A DNA stretch of 32,505 bases from Chloroflexota bacterium (GTDB lineage: Bacteria; Chloroflexota; Anaerolineae; UBA1429): assembly GCA_021372475.1 (NCBI GenBank), contig JAJFUJ010000215.1:1-32505 (forward strand), in the 5' to 3' direction. A program made the translations under genes and the position numbers. Below the pieces are notes generated by a model. The model was not told the DNA's origin and did not search any database. It saw nothing but the letters and a program-made list of their open reading frames with translations. Position 1 is the stretch's first letter; each line of letters begins with the position of its first letter. Below are positions 2,150-18,811 of the stretch, in pieces.

Positions 2150-3151
2150 TTATTGAATCAGATTCTTGCTCTCAAACCGGAAAATCGCGTATAGCGCCAA
2201 TGCGGCGACACCTCCCGCTACAAGATAGCCTTCCAGGATGCCAGCTTGTGTGAGATATACTGCGGTCATCCCAAAACCGCAGCTAACCAGGTACAGGATC
2301 AAAACAGCTTCGCGGCTGGTAAAACCTTTACGCACCAGGCGATGCGAAGTGTGGTCCTTCCCTGGAGTTGTCAGCGGATTCAGGTGCCGGCGCAAGCGCG
2401 AAATGAAAACCAGCGTCGTATCAAAGATCGGCAGCCCCATTACCAGCACGGGGATCATCCAGGTAATAAAGGTAACATTCTGCGGGAAGCGCAGCTTGAT
2501 TCCAACAGCCGCCAACAGAAATCCGATGAAAAGGCTGCCGGTATCCCCCATAAAAATACTGGCTGGGTTTCTGTTATACACCAAAAAACCGATACAGGCG
2601 CCTAAAAGGGCAGCAGCCAACGCTCCTACCAGATATTGCCCGGAGAGCGCCGCCAGCAGTAAAAAGAACGCCGAGCATACGGCGGCTATTCCGGCTGATA
2701 AACCATCCATATTATCCAGCAGATTCATCGCATTGGTGATGCCGACTATCCACAGCACCGTAATCGCTATATTCGCGGCAGGCCACGGTAGGAGCTGAAC
2801 CTGTACACCGCTAAGGACCAGCACAGCCGAGGCGATGAGCTGTCCGCCCAGTTTGACGAGAGCCGGCAAATTACGGCGGTCATCGACCAAACCGATAAAC
2901 GAGCAGATACTTGCACCGAGCAGTATGCCGACCAGCTCGCGAATATAAAAGCGCTCGCCGAACAGCACCAAAGCGATGATGAAAGCCAAGTAGATAGCCA
3001 CACCACCTAAAAGAGGTATGGGGTGGGAATGGATTTTGCGAGCCGAAGGTTTGTCAACAATCCCCAATTTAACTGCCAGCCAACGCACCACCGGGGTCAC
3101 TCCTACGGCAAGAGCAAAAGCGCTGACGCCAATCAACAGGAATCGCGGCAC
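2150..3151 (-). CDS. WecA/TagO-type undecaprenyl-phosphate glycosyl-1-phosphate transferase
   Basis: A 333-residue polytopic protein of glycosyltransferase family 4 (MraY/WecA). Such enzymes transfer a sugar-1-phosphate, usually GlcNAc-1-P from UDP-GlcNAc, to undecaprenyl phosphate at the inner membrane. About ten hydrophobic segments are seen. Family motifs are [10 protein letters not shown] with the LLGG turn (33-50), the metal-binding LVDDR (D90-D91), [12 protein letters not shown] (140-151, with D146 and D149), FMGDTGS, and a His-rich loop KDHTSHRL. The start is GTG at 3151, with GAGGGG 7 bases upstream. It lies one base after the TAG of the ligase gene, so the two are probably coupled. 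A longer reading to 3250 overlaps the ligase TPR region and has no support. The sugar specificity cannot be told from sequence alone. Confidence 0.92.
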
Positions 3152-3152
3152 G

Positions 3153-6100
3153 CTAGTTCCCCTCGTTGATGAGTTGTTCGAGTTGGGTGATGTAGGCTGA
3201 CATGCTTGTCTTTTGCTCCTCCGGGGCGACGGTAAGCGCCTGCTGCGCATAACTCAATGCTTGCGTCAGGTTGCCTTGTTTCTCATATAACAAGGCCAGG
3301 TTCTTTAACGAGTTGTAGTCGGAAGGATAGAATGAAACGACCTTTAGATTTGCCTCTATCGCCTTATCCACCTGGCCAAGCTGCGCATAAGCATAAGCCA
3401 AAGCAGACCAGGCGGCAGCCGCCTCGTTATCGAAGGTCAACCCCTTCTCATAATACTGCGCCGCTTCCTCGAACTGGCTGGCATTGAGTTTAGCATCGCC
3501 CAGATAGAAATACGTGTTGGCATATTCTGAGTCGATTGCCAGGGATTCCTGGTATTTTTGAATCGCGCGGTCGGTGTTGCCGCCTACAAAATAGGCCTGA
3601 CCCCATTCATCGATGATTTGCGCATTATTGGGGCTTAATTCGTTCGCTTGTTGGTAATAGGCGAGTGCGGTCTCTATTTTCGCTGCCTTCGACTGGTTAT
3701 CGGTATCCATTTCAGCCCAGGTGCGGTAAAAACGCGCCAGGTTGGCAGTATGGTCGGTATTCAGGGGATTAAGCCTCTGCGCCTCCAGCAGCACTTTGAG
3801 CGTTTGCTGCATATAGGTCTCGCGAGCAGTCGCATTCTCCTCGACGCGCGCACGTTCCATCAGCACTCGGCCATAAAACAACCAGTAATAATCCTCCTTG
3901 GGAGCAGCGGTAACGGCGCTGTTATAGATCTGAATTGCGGCATCCCAATCCTGCCCCTCATCGTAAGTCAAGCCTTGTTTATAAATAATATCCGCTTTAA
4001 TGGGCTGGATATTAAGGCTGTCAACAAGCACAGATCCCGTTATCGCTAATACCAGGGCAAGCACAAGGCTCCAACCACTGCCGGATGCTCGCGGCTTGGG
4101 GAGCAAGAAATAGTAAAGAGTTGCGAATGATAACCAAAACAATGCAGTCCAGGTGTAAAAGCTGTAGATGATTGTCGAGATATCCGTTACAGTAATGAGT
4201 CTAACCGCATGCGATGCAGCGAATACAAAAGCGATCACCACAGAGATACCAAGCATTGTACCGATACGCTTAAGCAGTTCACTGGATTTTACAGGCGCGT
4301 TATCGACACCTATCTCTGCCAGCGAGACGGTGCAGCCGAAAAACAGTGTACTTAACATGAGCCACAGCATACCAAGGCTGTGCACCTCGGGCTGTTTCTT
4401 GGCAGCAAAGGTCGTGAATGAATTCACGAGAACCGTGATCAAGTCAGTATCGCGGTTTGCATTGGTGACAAAGGTCCAAGACATCACCGATAGAATATAA
4501 CCAAGAATTAACGCCATCATCACGAGCCGCGCTCGAGCCGGCTCTCTCGATTCAGTTTCAACCGCTGCAGAAACTGCTGCTTTGGTTGAAACAGCCGAAG
4601 TATGCTTATGTTTCGCTGGGTGACGCAGCGTAGATGTCGGCTTATATCTAGGTGTGGTCACATCATATGCGCCAGCAGCCGATGATACGCTCAACGGAAC
4701 AATCCCGAGCACTTCAATCAAGGCCAAGTACACCCAAAACAAAGTCCGAGTGGAGGCTATAGCAATCCCAAAGTTGATTTCGACCAGATGAGCCAGCACT
4801 GCTGAAGCAAGCGCTGCCAGCCAGATAAACTTCCAGTTATCGACCTCTGGGAGGGCCAGCCTTTCTTTTGAAACTGCAATCGCTTTGGGGATGATATAGC
4901 AAAACAGGCCGGCAACGAACCCAATCATTGTACCGACGCCGCTGTAGGTGCCCTTACTATCTACCAAAAAAGGTATCACCAATCCCAGCAGGGTTCCAGC
5001 AGCCAGGAAAATACCAAAAGACCGCTTATCTTTACCGCTTTGAATCAAGCCAAGCCACTGCAAGGCATAATAAAATATGGATGCAAATATCAAAACATAC
5101 GCTAGGAATCCAAACACGCCAGTTATAACAAATGAATCCAACGTCTCATTATGAGAGCGGTCCGGTGAAGCATTGCGGGCTTCATAATGAGCCAATTCGG
5201 GCGGGTAGTACTTGTTGTATGCGACATACATCGTCTCAGGGCCGTAACCCACCAACGCCCTTAGCGGGTTTGCCTTGATCAGCTTGATAGCCCCTTCCCA
5301 AATGAGCAGACGCACCTTGCCCGTGCCCCCGCTCGTTTCCAGCAGGTTGCCTAGCCGTCCCAGGTAGGGCATTGAACGCAAGCTCTGCAGCGGTGTAGCG
5401 GGGAGATTAAAGACGATGAGAAAGGCTGCCACCACTGCCCCGCCCGCCAACCATGCCCACACAGCTTTGGACCAGCGGCGGATAATAAAATACAAGAGAA
5501 TGAATAGCGCCGCTCCCGCAATCATGCCGAGCTGCGGCCCGCGGCTCTGGCTATATATCAGGCACATCGCCTGAACACTGAGAATAAACTGGTAACAGGC
5601 GAGGAGAATATACTGAGCAGGTGTTTTTTTCAGGTAACGCGCCAGCAGCCAAAAAGCGGCGACAGCCAGGAGCCCCATCCCCAGGCCGCGTTCCAAACCT
5701 CGGCTCAGCCAGGCCACAAGTTCGGCTGCAAATACAGCTACCAGGGCCGCAATCATCACCCATTTGGTCTTTTTACCCAGCTCGCGGGTTATCTCTTGGG
5801 AAGCAAGCACCAAACGAGCCAGCGTGAGCGGTATCGCCATGATAATAAAGGCGCCCACAAAAATAGCATTGCCCATATTGGAAGTAACACGAGCCGTAAC
5901 ATCCGAGCCCCACGGCATCGCGTCGATACCATAATGCTGGATAATGCCATACAGGGAAACCGGAAAGCTCACTAGAATAATGGTAGTGATCAGGCGTTCG
6001 AACTGCTCTTTGCGCTTCAACTCGTGCATCACGATCAGCGCAATGACAATGTAACTATAAGTTGTGAATGTGCCCTGTAAACGCTGATATGAACCTAACC

Positions 6101-10075: not shown

Positions 10076-10921
10076 CTAAGCTTCGCAGGCGAAGATGCAT
10101 ATAGCCGTAGGCCCGGTCAAGCTACCCAGGACCGGTCCGTACACTTTTTGATGGATGATCTCCCGCGGGAAAATACCTGCAAGCTGGTCAGCAAACTCGC
10201 AGGGTGGGGGATTGATACCGCTGGTTAACACCTCAATGCGTTTGAGACTCGGAAACTCGGCTACGAACCCTACCAGGCGCTCGAACTGCGTGCCCCGGTT
10301 ACGTTGCAATTGTAAGGGCACAATCTCACCTTCCTCCAACAACAAAACGGGGCGGTTACCGGTCGCAATCGACATGGATTCGTAGGAAGGGGGCACAAGG
10401 TGATGACAATCCAGGAACTCGGTGCTATCAACATAGAAGGCAAAATAAGAATGCGCAACTAAGCCGCGCACCAGTCGAGTAATCTCCAAGGCACTGGCGC
10501 CTTCACAACTCGCCTTGGCAGCCTCGATGACCAGGCCGCCAAGGGCAGCAGAAACAAATTGCGAATCCAGCACAGAAATATTATACCGTCCCATAAGGCT
10601 GGCCTTGGCCTTGTTAGCTGTATTAACAGCGGGAGACAGTTCGGAGGATAGATGGATAGATACGACTTCGGTATTATTGGCTGAGAGCTGCGTATAAAGC
10701 GAGATGAACTCTGCAACTGTAGGCGTGATAATCCTGGGCGCAGCATGGCTCTGCGCTAAGCGTTGGTGAAAGCCTGGGCAGCGAAGATTTGGACAATCAT
10801 CGATGATCTCGTCGCCTATTTGTAGTTTCAGTGGGATGACGCTGATACCATATTCTTCGACCAGCTCAGCCGGTAAATCTGCTGAGCTATCTGTGACAAT
10901 CCTTGTCCTGACCGCCGCCAT
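10076..10921 (-). CDS. DegV family fatty-acid-binding protein (FakB-like)
   Basis: A 281-residue DegV protein. Family members such as FakB bind a fatty acid and present its carboxylate to the kinase FakA, giving acyl-phosphate for phospholipid synthesis. The N-terminus RIVTDSSADLPAELVEEYGISVIPL is diagnostic. The carboxylate-binding regions appear as ITPTVAEF (normally TSQPS...F) and LSSELSPAVNTA. The C-terminal half has the usual VLTSGI and GPVLGSLTGP segments. The start ATG has GGAGGCGGAGGC directly upstream. Directly following the FakA-like gene by 20 bp, it is most likely its dedicated partner. The changed TSQPS motif is a mild oddity. Confidence 0.9.
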   Translation of the reverse strand: MAAVRTRIVTDSSADLPAELVEEYGISVIPLKLQIGDEIIDDCPNLRCPGFHQRLAQSHAAPRIITPTVAEFISLYTQLSANNTEVVSIHLSSELSPAVNTANKAKASLMGRYNISVLDSQFVSAALGGLVIEAAKASCEGASALEITRLVRGLVAHSYFAFYVDSTEFLDCHHLVPPSYESMSIATGNRPVLLLEEGEIVPLQLQRNRGTQFERLVGFVAEFPSLKRIEVLTSGINPPPCEFADQLAGIFPREIIHQKVYGPVLGSLTGPTAICIFACEA

Positions 10922-10941
10922 GCCTCCGCCTCCACAACTAC

Positions 10942-12639
10942 CTATTCGATCGAGATGATATAATCATAATGCGCCTGCCCGCCATCCAGCACCTCTACTT
11001 CGAGCGTGGGATATTTCCCCCGGATACTCTCCGCCAACCCGGCCGCCTGTTCAGCCGAAGTATCCTCCCCATAGTAAATGGTGACGATTTCATATGCTGA
11101 AATATCCAGGTGCCGCTGGATTACCTCGCAAACAACACTTTGGGCGTCCTCGCCGGCCGACACGAGCTGATCATTCAGCAGGCCAATTGTTTGACCTTCG
11201 TGCACCTTTAAGCCATTTACCTGAACAGAGCGTACTGCACGGGTAACTTCTACAGTCTGTACATGTTGGCTGGCTTCGGCCATCGCATCCGTATTATCTT
11301 CAAGACTCGCTTGGTAGTTGAACGCGAGCAGGGCAGCAATTCCCTGCGGGATCGTCCGCGTTGGCACAACAACAGCCTGGCGCTGCGACAGCGCTTGAGC
11401 CTGTTCCGCTGTAAGAATAATATTGCTATTGTTGGGTAAAATGATGACCTTTTCCTGTTTGAGGCTATCGACCGCCTGCAGTAAATCCTGGGTGCTCGGA
11501 TTCATCGTTTGCCCGCCCGGCACGACAAAGCCCGCTCCCAAGCTTTCGAAAACACGAGCTAATCCCGCGCCAGAAGCGACAGCAACGATACCAATTTCCC
11601 CCGTCGCTGCGGCGGGCACAGTAATCGGCCTAGCTACCTCTGGAACGGAATTCGCAACCTTGAATTGCTCGAATTGCTCCTGCATATTCTCGATAATGAC
11701 GGCGGTTAGCTGCCCCTGAGCGATCCCATAGCTGAGCACCTCGCCAGGATTATCGCTGTGCACATGAACCTTGACCGCATCCCCATCGCCCACGACCAGC
11801 ACAGAGTCGCCAAAAGAGGCGATCCCGGCCCTGAGGCTCTCTACATTAAGATTATGTCCTTTGATGATAAATTGGGTGTCATAATTATAAGTAGCTTCCG
11901 AAATATGCACATGTTCTATAGATATTTCTTGTTTATTTGCTAGTTGCATTTTCTCGCCATTCAGATAGCGAACCACTCCCTCCAATAAGAAAGTATATCC
12001 CTGGCCGCCAGCATCAACCACTCCCGCCTCAGCCAGCACAGGCAGAAGGTTGGGTGTACGCGCTAGAGAACGTTTAGCCTCACTATAGGCTACGTGCAGC
12101 CATTCCTTTATTGGCATTCCCTGCTCTACAGCACTGGCGCCGGCCTGGGCAGATTCACGTACTACCGTGAGAATTGTGCCCTCAACGGGCTTCATCACAC
12201 CCTTATAAGCAGTTGTCGCGGCTTCGATCAACGCCTTGGCAGCTTGTTCCGTGTTGCATACCTTGAGATCATCCAAACCTCGGGCAAAACCCCGCAAGAC
12301 CTGCGAAAGTATCACCCCCGAATTGCCGCGAGCGCCCATCAGGGCGCCATGAGCGACTGTGCGCGCCAGTTCGGATACACTGTCAAACGATTTGCCCTTT
12401 GTCTCTTCGAGAGCGGCCTTCATCGTTAGAAACATATTAGTGCCAGTATCGCCATCAGGCACTGGGAAGACGTTCAGCGAATTAACCAACGGAACCTGGC
12501 CTTCGAGCCATTTATAGCCAGCCATCAGCGCCGCTAGAAGCCGATCTACATCGCAAACCTGGGCATCATCGAGCCCAATCTCTTCCGGTCCCTGGTTAAC
12601 TTCCTCTGTAGGTTCTGAGGGTGGATTGCAACTGCTCAA
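10942..12639 (-). CDS. fakA: DAK-phosphatase-domain protein, fatty acid kinase FakA / YloV-like
   Basis: A 565-residue protein. The N-terminal DhaL-type kinase domain shows VFPVPDGDTGTNM (the Asp triad for Mg-ATP), GALMGARGNSGVILSQ and VVDAGGQGY. The middle domain has DAVKVHVHSDNPG, matching the His pair of the FakA metal site. The C-terminal domain is typical of YloV, ending in LEVEVLDGGQAHYDY. Known FakA phosphorylates FakB-bound fatty acid, and the FakB-like gene is next. An upstream GTG at 12654 is open, but a strong GGAGGT lies just after it, 7 bases before the TTG at 12639, so I chose the TTG. The order asp23-yloV is the same as in Bacillus. Confidence 0.9.
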   Translation of the reverse strand: MSSCNPPSEPTEEVNQGPEEIGLDDAQVCDVDRLLAALMAGYKWLEGQVPLVNSLNVFPVPDGDTGTNMFLTMKAALEETKGKSFDSVSELARTVAHGALMGARGNSGVILSQVLRGFARGLDDLKVCNTEQAAKALIEAATTAYKGVMKPVEGTILTVVRESAQAGASAVEQGMPIKEWLHVAYSEAKRSLARTPNLLPVLAEAGVVDAGGQGYTFLLEGVVRYLNGEKMQLANKQEISIEHVHISEATYNYDTQFIIKGHNLNVESLRAGIASFGDSVLVVGDGDAVKVHVHSDNPGEVLSYGIAQGQLTAVIIENMQEQFEQFKVANSVPEVARPITVPAAATGEIGIVAVASGAGLARVFESLGAGFVVPGGQTMNPSTQDLLQAVDSLKQEKVIILPNNSNIILTAEQAQALSQRQAVVVPTRTIPQGIAALLAFNYQASLEDNTDAMAEASQHVQTVEVTRAVRSVQVNGLKVHEGQTIGLLNDQLVSAGEDAQSVVCEVIQRHLDISAYEIVTIYYGEDTSAEQAAGLAESIRGKYPTLEVEVLDGGQAHYDYIISIE

Positions 12640-12677
12640 GAATACTACCTCCACAAGAATCGAGACGGAAAGAACAA

Positions 12678-15930: not shown

Positions 15931-16749
15931 TCAGTGAATTACCAACTTTTCATTCAGCGCCTGCTGCCAGTCTGCTATCAATGCTGGGATATCCTGGTAG
16001 GTAAAATCCGGTTTGATATCCGAAAGAGCGATATCTTTAGTAGTGGTAACCCCGGTCATCACCAGAATGGTTGTCATACCCAGACGCTGGCCGCCCAGGA
16101 TGTCTGTTTCCAGGCGATCGCCGAGAGAGGCTGCTTCTGATGGCATGATGTCGAGTTCCTGTAACACCTGGTGGAAAATTGCCGGCTCGGGCTTGCCGAT
16201 ATACAGCGGTTCCTGGTCGGTGGCAGCTTCGATCGCCGCGATGATGCTACCTGCTCCCGGAATTAGCTCGTTTTCTACAGGGAATGTCTTATCAGGATTG
16301 GTGCCAATAAACGTGGCGCCGTGCCGTATCGCGATAGTTGCCGTCGTCAGCTTTTCAAAAGATATCGTTCGATCAAGGCCAGCGACTACATAATCTGCAT
16401 CTTGGCCGGCTAACCTGAAGCCGCGCTTGACAAACTCCTGTACCAGCGCTTCCTCGCCAACGACAAATACTCCCGCGCCCGCGGGCGCCTGCTCAGCGAG
16501 GTACGCTGCCGCTGCTGCACCGGAGGTCAGGATTTTATCTGCTGCCAGATCGATTCCCATCGCCTGCAATTTTGTCATTACGGAATCCTGGTTCATGGTG
16601 GCATTATTGGTCACCGCTTTATACCTGATATTGTTTTTCTCAAGAAACGCGAATAGTTGCGCACAACCTGGCAAGGCCTTCTTGCCGCGGTACAGCACAC
16701 CATCCATATCGGTCACCAAAGCCTTAATTTTAGCCAATTCGGCTTGCAT
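15931..16749 (-). CDS. HAD-IIA family phosphatase (NagD/AraL-like)
   Basis: A 272-residue haloacid dehalogenase-type sugar or nucleotide phosphatase. Motif I is TDMDGVLYRGKK, with the nucleophile D14 and acid D16. Motif II is TNNATMNQ. The IIA cap carries GEEALVQEFVKRGFRLAGQDADYVVAGLDR. Motif III/IV appear as GKPEPAIF and SLGDRLETDILGG. Substrates of such proteins are broad, so I give no specific one. The frame extends to 16779, but AGGAG five bases before the ATG at 16749 sets the start. It begins 11 bp after the amidohydrolase stop, and 42 bp separate it from the peptidase gene. Confidence 0.92.
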   Translation of the reverse strand: MQAELAKIKALVTDMDGVLYRGKKALPGCAQLFAFLEKNNIRYKAVTNNATMNQDSVMTKLQAMGIDLAADKILTSGAAAAAYLAEQAPAGAGVFVVGEEALVQEFVKRGFRLAGQDADYVVAGLDRTISFEKLTTATIAIRHGATFIGTNPDKTFPVENELIPGAGSIIAAIEAATDQEPLYIGKPEPAIFHQVLQELDIMPSEAASLGDRLETDILGGQRLGMTTILVMTGVTTTKDIALSDIKPDFTYQDIPALIADWQQALNEKLVIH

Positions 16750-16760
16750 ACCAGCTCCTA

Positions 16761-18092
16761 TCAACTTAATCTTTGCCATAGAATTGTTGTTACTTCACGC
16801 GCGTGCGCAACTATTTGCTCCACATCGACGGTTTGGTATTTACCTTGGCGGTATAAAACTTTGCCACCCACGATGACGGTATCCACCCGCATCCCATTGT
16901 TGCCAAGCAACAATTGCCTATACAGCTCGGGCACATTATCTGGCCAAGAACCGAACATATCGATCAGTATCAGGTCGGCGAGTGCGCCCACCTCCAGGCT
17001 GCCGATCCGTTCGCCTGTCAGCGTCGAAGCCATCATTGCGTTTGTTTTGGTAAGCACCTTTGCAAAGAATGCCAACGTGGCCTCTCGGTCCGGCAGCGTT
17101 GCCTGCATCTGGGCATACAAGGCAGCCTGCGCCTCACCAAGCATATCATATGCTACACCATCTGTCCCCAGGCAAATGGCCTGTCCCTCGGCTGCATATT
17201 CGAGGATACGCGCTAAGCCCACACCGGTTATAATATTGGCATGGGGAACGTGTGCCAGCCAGGCGCCGCTCTGCCGGAGCAAGTCGCGATCCTGCTGGCT
17301 AAGGTAAACCGCATCGGCCAGCAGTGTACGCTTGCTCAGCACGCCCCAACGGCGTAAACGAGCGGTGGGAGAAACACCATAACTGAGGGCGCAATCTCGG
17401 CCGGCATACAGGCTCTCGCCAACTATACCATGGAAGCCAATCCGAGCGATTGCCGCAGCCCCCACAGCATAAGACAACGCTGTGTCAGATATAAAATGGC
17501 AGGTATCCAATCCCATGCTTGCTGACAACAACGCTTCGCCCCTCGCGCGCTCTGCAAAGCGAATGTTCTCATCGACGGCCACCCTGCCGGAAGCGCTACC
17601 CTCATGGTCCGAGACAGCATAGGCAATGTTAGCGCGCAGCCCGACCTGGAGCACCGCCTCAGCAACTGCATCCAACGCGTAGCGAACGGCGCCTGGAGCA
17701 GAAAGCAGGTCAAAAACACAGGTTGTGCCGTAACGCAGCGCTTCCACTGCCGATAACAGCGCACTATAACGAATCGCCTTGTAATCAAGCGCGGATGCGT
17801 AACGGCGCCAAAATTCGAGCGTCTCACCGCCGGCCGCCACCCGATCTAGCGCTGGTAGCCTATATCCGCGGGCGAGAATGCGGCTCATGCGTGTGTGGGC
17901 GTTGATGAAACCTGGCATGAGCAGTTTCTGCTGGCCATCCAGGCGTGGTTCGTTCGGAAATTGTGCGGCGAGCTCCGTTGTTGTACCAATGCGCGCGATT
18001 CGTCCACTAGAAATTAGCAGCGCTCCGTCAGCAATTGGCGCCATTTCCGCATTTAGGGCTGGAATAGTTATATGAGTAATGAGCATCGCCAT
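16761..18092 (-). CDS. SsnA-like amidohydrolase family protein with a degenerate metal site
   Basis: A 443-residue TIM-barrel protein of the TRZ/ATZ/SsnA amidohydrolase group, with N- and C-terminal beta pieces ending in GSLEVGALADLILID. Segments such as LRANIAYAVSDHEG, DENIRFAERA, LSQQDRDLL and LGTDGVAYDM follow SsnA of E. coli as I remember it. Most metal ligands are gone. HxH reads H66-T-R68; the FHIH-type histidine is I223 in FHGIVGE; the third-strand histidine is D260 in LLADAVY. E226 and D311 remain. Three codons checked on the DNA are CGC, ATA and GAT. A classic zinc hydrolase activity is therefore unlikely. It lies divergent from yedF, another gene of the same selenium-associated set. 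The ATG at 18092 has a weak ribosome site; a second ATG lies two codons on. Confidence 0.85.
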   Translation of the reverse strand: MAMLITHITIPALNAEMAPIADGALLISSGRIARIGTTTELAAQFPNEPRLDGQQKLLMPGFINAHTRMSRILARGYRLPALDRVAAGGETLEFWRRYASALDYKAIRYSALLSAVEALRYGTTCVFDLLSAPGAVRYALDAVAEAVLQVGLRANIAYAVSDHEGSASGRVAVDENIRFAERARGEALLSASMGLDTCHFISDTALSYAVGAAAIARIGFHGIVGESLYAGRDCALSYGVSPTARLRRWGVLSKRTLLADAVYLSQQDRDLLRQSGAWLAHVPHANIITGVGLARILEYAAEGQAICLGTDGVAYDMLGEAQAALYAQMQATLPDREATLAFFAKVLTKTNAMMASTLTGERIGSLEVGALADLILIDMFGSWPDNVPELYRQLLLGNNGMRVDTVIVGGKVLYRQGKYQTVDVEQIVAHAREVTTILWQRLS

Positions 18093-18158
18093 AACTACCG
18101 GCTTCCGTGATCCGCCAGGGGCACCGCCTACATGCCACTAGACTACCTATCAGCAATC

Positions 18159-18187
18159 TTGATGATATTACTATAAATTGGTATACT
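18159..18187 (+). promoter_or_regulatory. Sigma-70-type promoter for yedF
   Basis: TTGATG (18159-18164) and TATACT (18182-18187) are separated by 17 bp. Start of transcription is expected near 18194, giving a leader of about 20 bases that contains the GGGAGGG ribosome site. Confidence 0.75.
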
Positions 18188-18193
18188 TGTCGA
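18165..18193 (-). promoter_or_regulatory. Possible promoter for the SsnA-like / HAD / yugP / rlmN / rpe run
   Basis: On the minus strand TCGACA (18193-18188) and TAATAT (18170-18165) are 17 bp apart. It overlaps the yedF promoter almost completely, face to face. The start would be near 18158, about 65 bases before the ATG. Confidence 0.45.
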
Positions 18194-18214
18194 GAATTCA
18201 GTCGGGAGGGATTT

Positions 18215-18811
18215 ATGCACACTATTGATGCCCGAGGGCTAGCCTGTCCTCAACCCGTAATAATGACACGCAACGAAATGCTGCGATGCGATGAGCTACA
18301 AGTGCTTGTTTCAGGCCAGGACTCTGTCAATAATATCCGAAGACTGGCCGATAAATCCGGTTGGCTGGTCGAGGTCTCCCAACGCAGCGGGAGTTTTGAA
18401 CTAACTCTGAAAAAGGGCAATAGCGCCGTAGAACCACTCATCACACCGGATGTCGAGCAGTCTTGTGAGCTCTCCAGCAAGTCTGTTATTCTCGTCGCGA
18501 GCCGCGAGATGGGACGAGGTAATACTGAGCTGGGTGAAATCCTCAGCAAGAGCTTTTTTTACGCACTAAGCGAAGCGAACACTAAACCACAAACTCTTAT
18601 CTTGATAAACTCAGGCATAACGCTAGCCATTCAAGATTCGCCAGTGCTGGAAGCGCTCCAAAAACTGGCTGCCAAGGGAGTCGAAATATTGGTTTGCGGA
18701 ACCTGCCTGGGCTACCTGAACCTCCGTGAAAAGCTGGCAGTAGGCTCCGTTACGAATATGTACACCATCGTCGAGATACTGCTCTCCGCCGGGCATACTA
18801 TCACTCTGTAG
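18215..18811 (+). CDS. yedF: YedF, selenium-metabolism-associated sulfurtransferase-like protein
   Basis: A 198-residue two-domain protein. Residues 1-70 are a TusA/SirA domain with the key cysteine C11 in ARGLACPQPV. Residues 87-198 are a DsrE-like domain with ILINSGITLA, DSPVLEALQKLAAKGVEIL and a CxxC pair C161/C164 in CGTCLGYLNL. This is the architecture of the YedF family linked to selenium use and selenium-dependent molybdenum hydroxylases, where SsnA also occurs. It probably carries persulphide or perselenide. The frame is open back to 18107, but GGGAGGG five bases before the ATG at 18215 and the promoter place the start there. Convergent with the next gene with a 6-bp gap. No selD or hydroxylase gene is in the window. 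Confidence 0.93.
   Translation: MHTIDARGLACPQPVIMTRNEMLRCDELQVLVSGQDSVNNIRRLADKSGWLVEVSQRSGSFELTLKKGNSAVEPLITPDVEQSCELSSKSVILVASREMGRGNTELGEILSKSFFYALSEANTKPQTLILINSGITLAIQDSPVLEALQKLAAKGVEILVCGTCLGYLNLREKLAVGSVTNMYTIVEILLSAGHTITL

Follow-up and report, generated by a model that had tools for sequence, protein, structure and literature searches.

The window, the whole stretch of 32,505 nucleotides that was analysed, holds a gene for an SsnA-like protein that is followed by a HAD-IIA phosphatase gene and lies divergent to yedF:

15931–16749, minus strand: HAD-IIA phosphatase gene with an intact DMDG motif, directly downstream of pseudo-SsnA
16761–18092, minus strand: pseudo-SsnA, 443 aa, an SsnA-like protein of amidohydrolase fold in which the canonical metal site is missing
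18093–18214: divergent intergenic region of 122 bp shared by pseudo-SsnA and yedF
18215–18811, plus strand: YedF, the divergent neighbour (TIGR03527, 192 bits; cut-off 110)

We found that the first-pass annotation of this DNA was exact in its gene coordinates and residue numbers. Its claim of a frame without a frameshift was also borne out, as the 443 codons on the minus strand form one open frame with no interruption. The likely start of the HAD gene, at 16749 behind GGAG, lies 11 nt after the SsnA stop, and a gap of this size suggests translational coupling; the longest ORF of this gene starts at 16779 and overlaps. The likely start of yedF is the ATG at 18215 behind GGGAGG. Elsewhere in the window (10076–12654) a FakA-like (DAK2/YloV) gene is followed by a DegV/FakB-like gene and then RecG, an order that is the same in G008, a genome of the same taxonomic family.

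The best family models for the window protein are those of SsnA (NF005540, 277.8 bits; TIGR03314, 269.4 bits). Both scores fall under the curated cut-offs (444 and 455.5 bits, respectively); the scores of three canonical SsnAs from the class to which the window belongs are 525–579 bits, above both. The match to PF01979 (Amidohydro_1) is 94.6 bits against a cut-off of 25, and the protein has the full barrel and composite domain of the amidohydrolase superfamily. Consistent with the earlier claim of an intact barrel, AlphaFold2 predicted one with a mean pLDDT of 93.4 and a pTM of 0.94, a high confidence that is partly expected from an input alignment of canonical homologues. Foldseek matched the model to 7ww2, 4gbd, 4dyk and 4f0r at TM scores of about 0.82–0.85. 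Tree support and synteny with HAD both indicate common descent with SsnA. No intact SsnA paralogue was found elsewhere in the window genome (G000 in the pairwise comparisons below), where the sole other match is a 26% relative.

We aligned the window protein with 126 other SsnA-like proteins. The canonical columns, namely the HxH, the strand-5 histidine, the glutamate, the strand-6 histidine and the strand-8 aspartate, correspond to window residues 66, 68, 223, 226, 260 and 311. Of the 126 others, 125 read H, H, H, E, H, D at these columns; the window copy reads H, R, I, E, D, D, so that HxH has become H-R and the later ligands I, D and D, with the catalytic glutamate kept. The one departure in the comparison set, and the sole SsnA there from outside the family to lack a ligand, is in an Armatimonadetes MAG (L032, gene at 2620–3879) with N at the strand-5 histidine column. 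A phmmer alignment to the Zn-bound adenosine-deaminase-type structures 4f0r and 4dzh gave the same ligand correspondence. The six ligand residues that the first-pass annotation had named hold good against both SsnA and the deaminase structures, and misaligned ligands are ruled out by the multiple alignment together with the alignment to Zn-bound structures. No alternative ligands were found elsewhere in the window protein, and other conserved pocket histidines are also lost.

The taxonomic family of the window spans 13 genera with 15 genomes, which are also all those of its order, and was searched completely. An SsnA-like gene is present in 5 of the 15. Four copies, from four genera, are complete; the fifth (G003) is the C-terminal part of a gene that runs into a contig end, and with Y at the 311 column it is without D311. 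No SsnA-like gene was found in the remaining 10 genomes, in some possibly through incomplete assembly. The complete members are 39–48% identical to their nearest family members, and their signatures at the six columns are HRIEDD (window), HRVEGA (G008), HRTGHG (G005) and HHNPHG (G011). The residues in question are as follows, all on the minus strand:

17895–17897, minus strand: H66, first histidine of HxH, present in each of the four complete members of the family
17889–17891, minus strand: R68 in place of the second HxH histidine; R also in G008 and G005
17880–17882, minus strand: R71 in place of S/G; common to G008 and G005
17505–17507, minus strand: D196 in place of an invariant pocket histidine; common to G008 and G005
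17424–17426, minus strand: I223 in place of the strand-5 metal histidine; V, T and N in the three relatives
17415–17417, minus strand: E226, kept in the window copy and G008; G in G005, P in G011
17313–17315, minus strand: D260 in place of the strand-6 metal histidine; G in G008, H kept in G005 and G011
17160–17162, minus strand: D311, strand-8 metal/catalytic aspartate, kept only in the window copy; A, G and G in the complete relatives

The strand-5 histidine is the only ligand lost in all four. G011 keeps HxH and H260, and on these residues a residual one-metal site is possible there.

In a tree built without the metal-ligand columns the four complete members form one clade (support 99/98). 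Its sister is a group of 47 canonical sequences of the same class (84/82), and the clade and the canonical class sequences group together against other phyla (99/96). Since four differently broken members form one clade, the ligand losses most probably date back to the common ancestor of the four and then took a separate course along each branch. A lone variant had been considered in the first-pass annotation; we found ligand losses in the sister genomes too, with R68 recurring in G008 and G005. A lone mutation or an assembly error is ruled out, as independent genomes show related losses.

SsnA was earlier grouped with selenium-dependent molybdenum hydroxylases (PMC2276186). More recent work has shown that it acts in reductive uric-acid degradation, opening the ring once YgfK or UacX has reduced yanthine, and it has served as a marker for uric-acid-degrading gene clusters; UacX near SsnA is said to be lacking in Chloroflexota (PMC12507026, 2025). 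At two loci, L127 (4071–5507) and L123 (11729–13216), a YqeC fused to a MobA-like NTP transferase lies beside SsnA and a UacX-like protein. None of the 15 genomes of the window's family has YqeB, a selenium-dependent molybdenum-hydroxylase factor, or a YgeW-like protein; among 45 others in the class, 27 have YqeB and 38 have a YgeW-like protein at E below 1e-25. A UacX-like protein is likewise absent from the family, where the best matches are 31–39% and mostly of the PyrD kind. Because these three are absent, the reductive uric-acid pathway seems to have been lost in the family.

SelD is present in 15 of 15 family genomes, and 14 of these (loci L137–L150, including L144) have an in-frame TGA, probably selenocysteine; G003 has a partial match only. 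A tRNA-Sec scores over the gathering threshold in 12 of 15 genomes and YedF over its cut-off in 13 of 15. With SelD, tRNA-Sec and YedF widely present and the YqeB, YgeW-like and UacX-like genes absent, selenium use therefore persists in the family while the uric-acid route appears lost. The selenium link that the first-pass annotation drew from the neighbouring yedF stands only in part: YedF is adjacent, but YqeB is absent from all 15 genomes and SsnA now belongs to uric-acid degradation as its ring-opening step (PMC12507026).

We next considered the substrate pocket, taken as those positions in the strand-end loops, 31 in all, that at least 90% of canonical SsnAs conserve, and judged from sequence. 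The four complete proteins keep 13, 12, 8 and 15 of the 31; the average for canonical members of the class is 99%. Outside the pocket loops, 36–43 of 57 conserved positions are kept. The window protein carries the changes H129L, H130L, H196D and H263Y and has also lost S285 and N289; the substrate pocket is therefore gone too. Pairs of canonical SsnAs with similar divergence are 65% (sd 5) identical in the pocket and 43% elsewhere. The G005–G011 pair has 28% in the pocket vs 51% elsewhere, and in the G000–G008 pair the pocket is only modestly higher (51% vs 44%). Judged by these conserved positions, constraint has shifted from the pocket to the scaffold. Constraint on a new pocket was considered and rejected, there being no significant excess of shared derived residues.

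It is conceivable, if unlikely, that the protein is a ligand sensor or binding protein, in which the pocket of G000 and G008 was rebuilt as a small polar or anion site (R68, R71, S70, S131, D196, Y263) and possibly signals to the HAD phosphatase. The two proteins have 14 derived pocket residues in common, R68, R71 and D196 occur in G005 as well, and the pocket identity of the pair exceeds that elsewhere. However, the pocket shows no significant enrichment of shared derived residues over the rest of the protein (Fisher p 0.41), and G011 is without R68, R71 and D196.

Between the window copy and G008, at 46% amino-acid identity, dN is 0.59 and dS 2.6 (NG86), the synonymous sites being saturated. 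When neutral evolution was simulated to the same third-position divergence, copies had a mean of 13 stops (minimum 2) and about 11% identity; the observed pair has 0 stops and 46% identity. This indicates purifying selection and agrees with the earlier claim that the gene is not decaying, as four frames are open and identity is far above the neutral expectation. Frame decay is ruled out by the open frames and the simulation. The dN of pseudo-SsnA is about twice that of its HAD neighbour (0.27) and somewhat above that of YedF (0.47).

Slow decay, in which a functionless leftover of the lost uric-acid pathway is gradually disappearing, fits this faster protein evolution relative to HAD and the absence of the gene from 10 of 15 family genomes, in some by clean deletion between HAD and YedF. 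It has to be set against four full-length frames that are all open after synonymous saturation and 39–48% identities far above neutral expectation, and we regard it as quite improbable. The least likely reading is a re-engineered enzyme, with metal-independent activity or a new metal site from H66, D260 and D311, part of which the first-pass annotation had offered as a D260/D311 site: H66, H221, E226 and D311 are still in place and D260 could serve as a metal ligand, but the nearest relative, G008, has G260 and A311, the other two complete members have lost E226 and have G311, and the conserved substrate-pocket residues are gone as well, which makes such a site very improbable.

The window protein is thus, in our view with good confidence, likely unable to carry out metal-dependent hydrolysis, its metal and substrate residues being lost and its fold kept. 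We favour, with moderate confidence, the reading of a pseudo-amidohydrolase that descends vertically from SsnA, has lost its zinc site and substrate pocket and is retained as a folded, non-catalytic protein. The earlier suggestion of a pseudo-hydrolase turned to another job accords with this: the loss runs through a clade of four genera, whose intact frames bear the mark of purifying selection, with constraint now on the scaffold instead of the pocket.

What that job is can be addressed through the neighbours. A HAD-IIA gene with the DMDG motif directly follows the SsnA-like gene in 5 of the 5 genomes that keep the latter. In four further genomes HAD and YedF are direct divergent neighbours with no SsnA between them (L215 in G010, L216 in G012, L217 in G014 and L218 in G004, where YedF is a fragment), the picture of a clean deletion. 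The SsnA-like gene therefore appears to have been deleted in these four and to be dispensable there; and since HAD persists where SsnA is gone, any dependence of HAD on the SsnA-like protein is not universal. Two canonical relatives (G036 and G019) have SsnA, a UacX-like DHO_dh protein, a YqeC–MobA fusion and HAD in one cluster. Because HAD was already near SsnA in these relatives, the adjacency may simply be inherited.

We tentatively suggest that pseudo-SsnA works by binding a protein or a ligand, and that its most plausible role is to scaffold or regulate the co-transcribed HAD phosphatase. In this proposal SsnA would have been inherited vertically in a family lacking the reductive uric-acid partners, its zinc site and substrate pocket would have been lost while selection kept the folded scaffold, and the protein would now bind or scaffold. 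Among the neighbours HAD-IIA alone is conserved in all five genomes, which makes it the best candidate for the partner. The specific form of this idea, in which a uric-acid-pathway hydrolase was exapted to serve a phosphoglycolate-phosphatase-like HAD-IIA enzyme as a non-catalytic subunit or as an allosteric regulator, is doubtful.

If the pseudo-amidohydrolase reading is true, ligand loss has been caught at different stages in sister genera. The clade starts from a defined enzyme with a known reaction, whose metal site was lost stepwise across genera with the scaffold under selection, and it offers a natural series for the study of the change from enzyme to non-enzyme. It is also a warning for SsnA as a uric-acid marker, as these family genomes have an SsnA-like gene apparently without the chemistry.

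To our knowledge, few pseudoenzymes are known in the amidohydrolase superfamily (pseudo-dihydroorotase and the CRMPs). The CRMP/DRP proteins have lost metal ligands in an amidohydrolase fold, as the window protein has, and serve as binding proteins; in contrast to it they are eukaryotic and derived from dihydropyrimidinase. The nearest solved folds, the TRZ/ATZ and MTA/SAH deaminases (4f0r, 4dyk, AtzA 4v1x; TM 0.82–0.85), all keep the metal site and are only 20–25% identical to the window protein. With SsnA (TIGR03314/NF005540) it shares the fold, full-length similarity (269–278 bits), monophyly with the class SsnAs and an inherited locus by HAD; it differs in lacking three metal histidines and most substrate-pocket residues, and its genome lacks the partner genes for YqeB, YgeW-like and UacX-like proteins. 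The closest functional parallel would be the pseudo-dihydroorotase (pDHO/PyrC') of Pseudomonas, which is inactive and without zinc ligands, yet is needed for assembly of aspartate transcarbamoylase (ATCase) (PMC7053772) and so offers a precedent for a pseudo-amidohydrolase that supports another enzyme. It belongs to another amidohydrolase subfamily, and in the window the candidate partner, known by gene adjacency, is a HAD phosphatase instead of ATCase. If the proposed role with HAD holds, pseudo-SsnA would extend the pseudo-dihydroorotase principle to another amidohydrolase subfamily, as its second example in bacteria.
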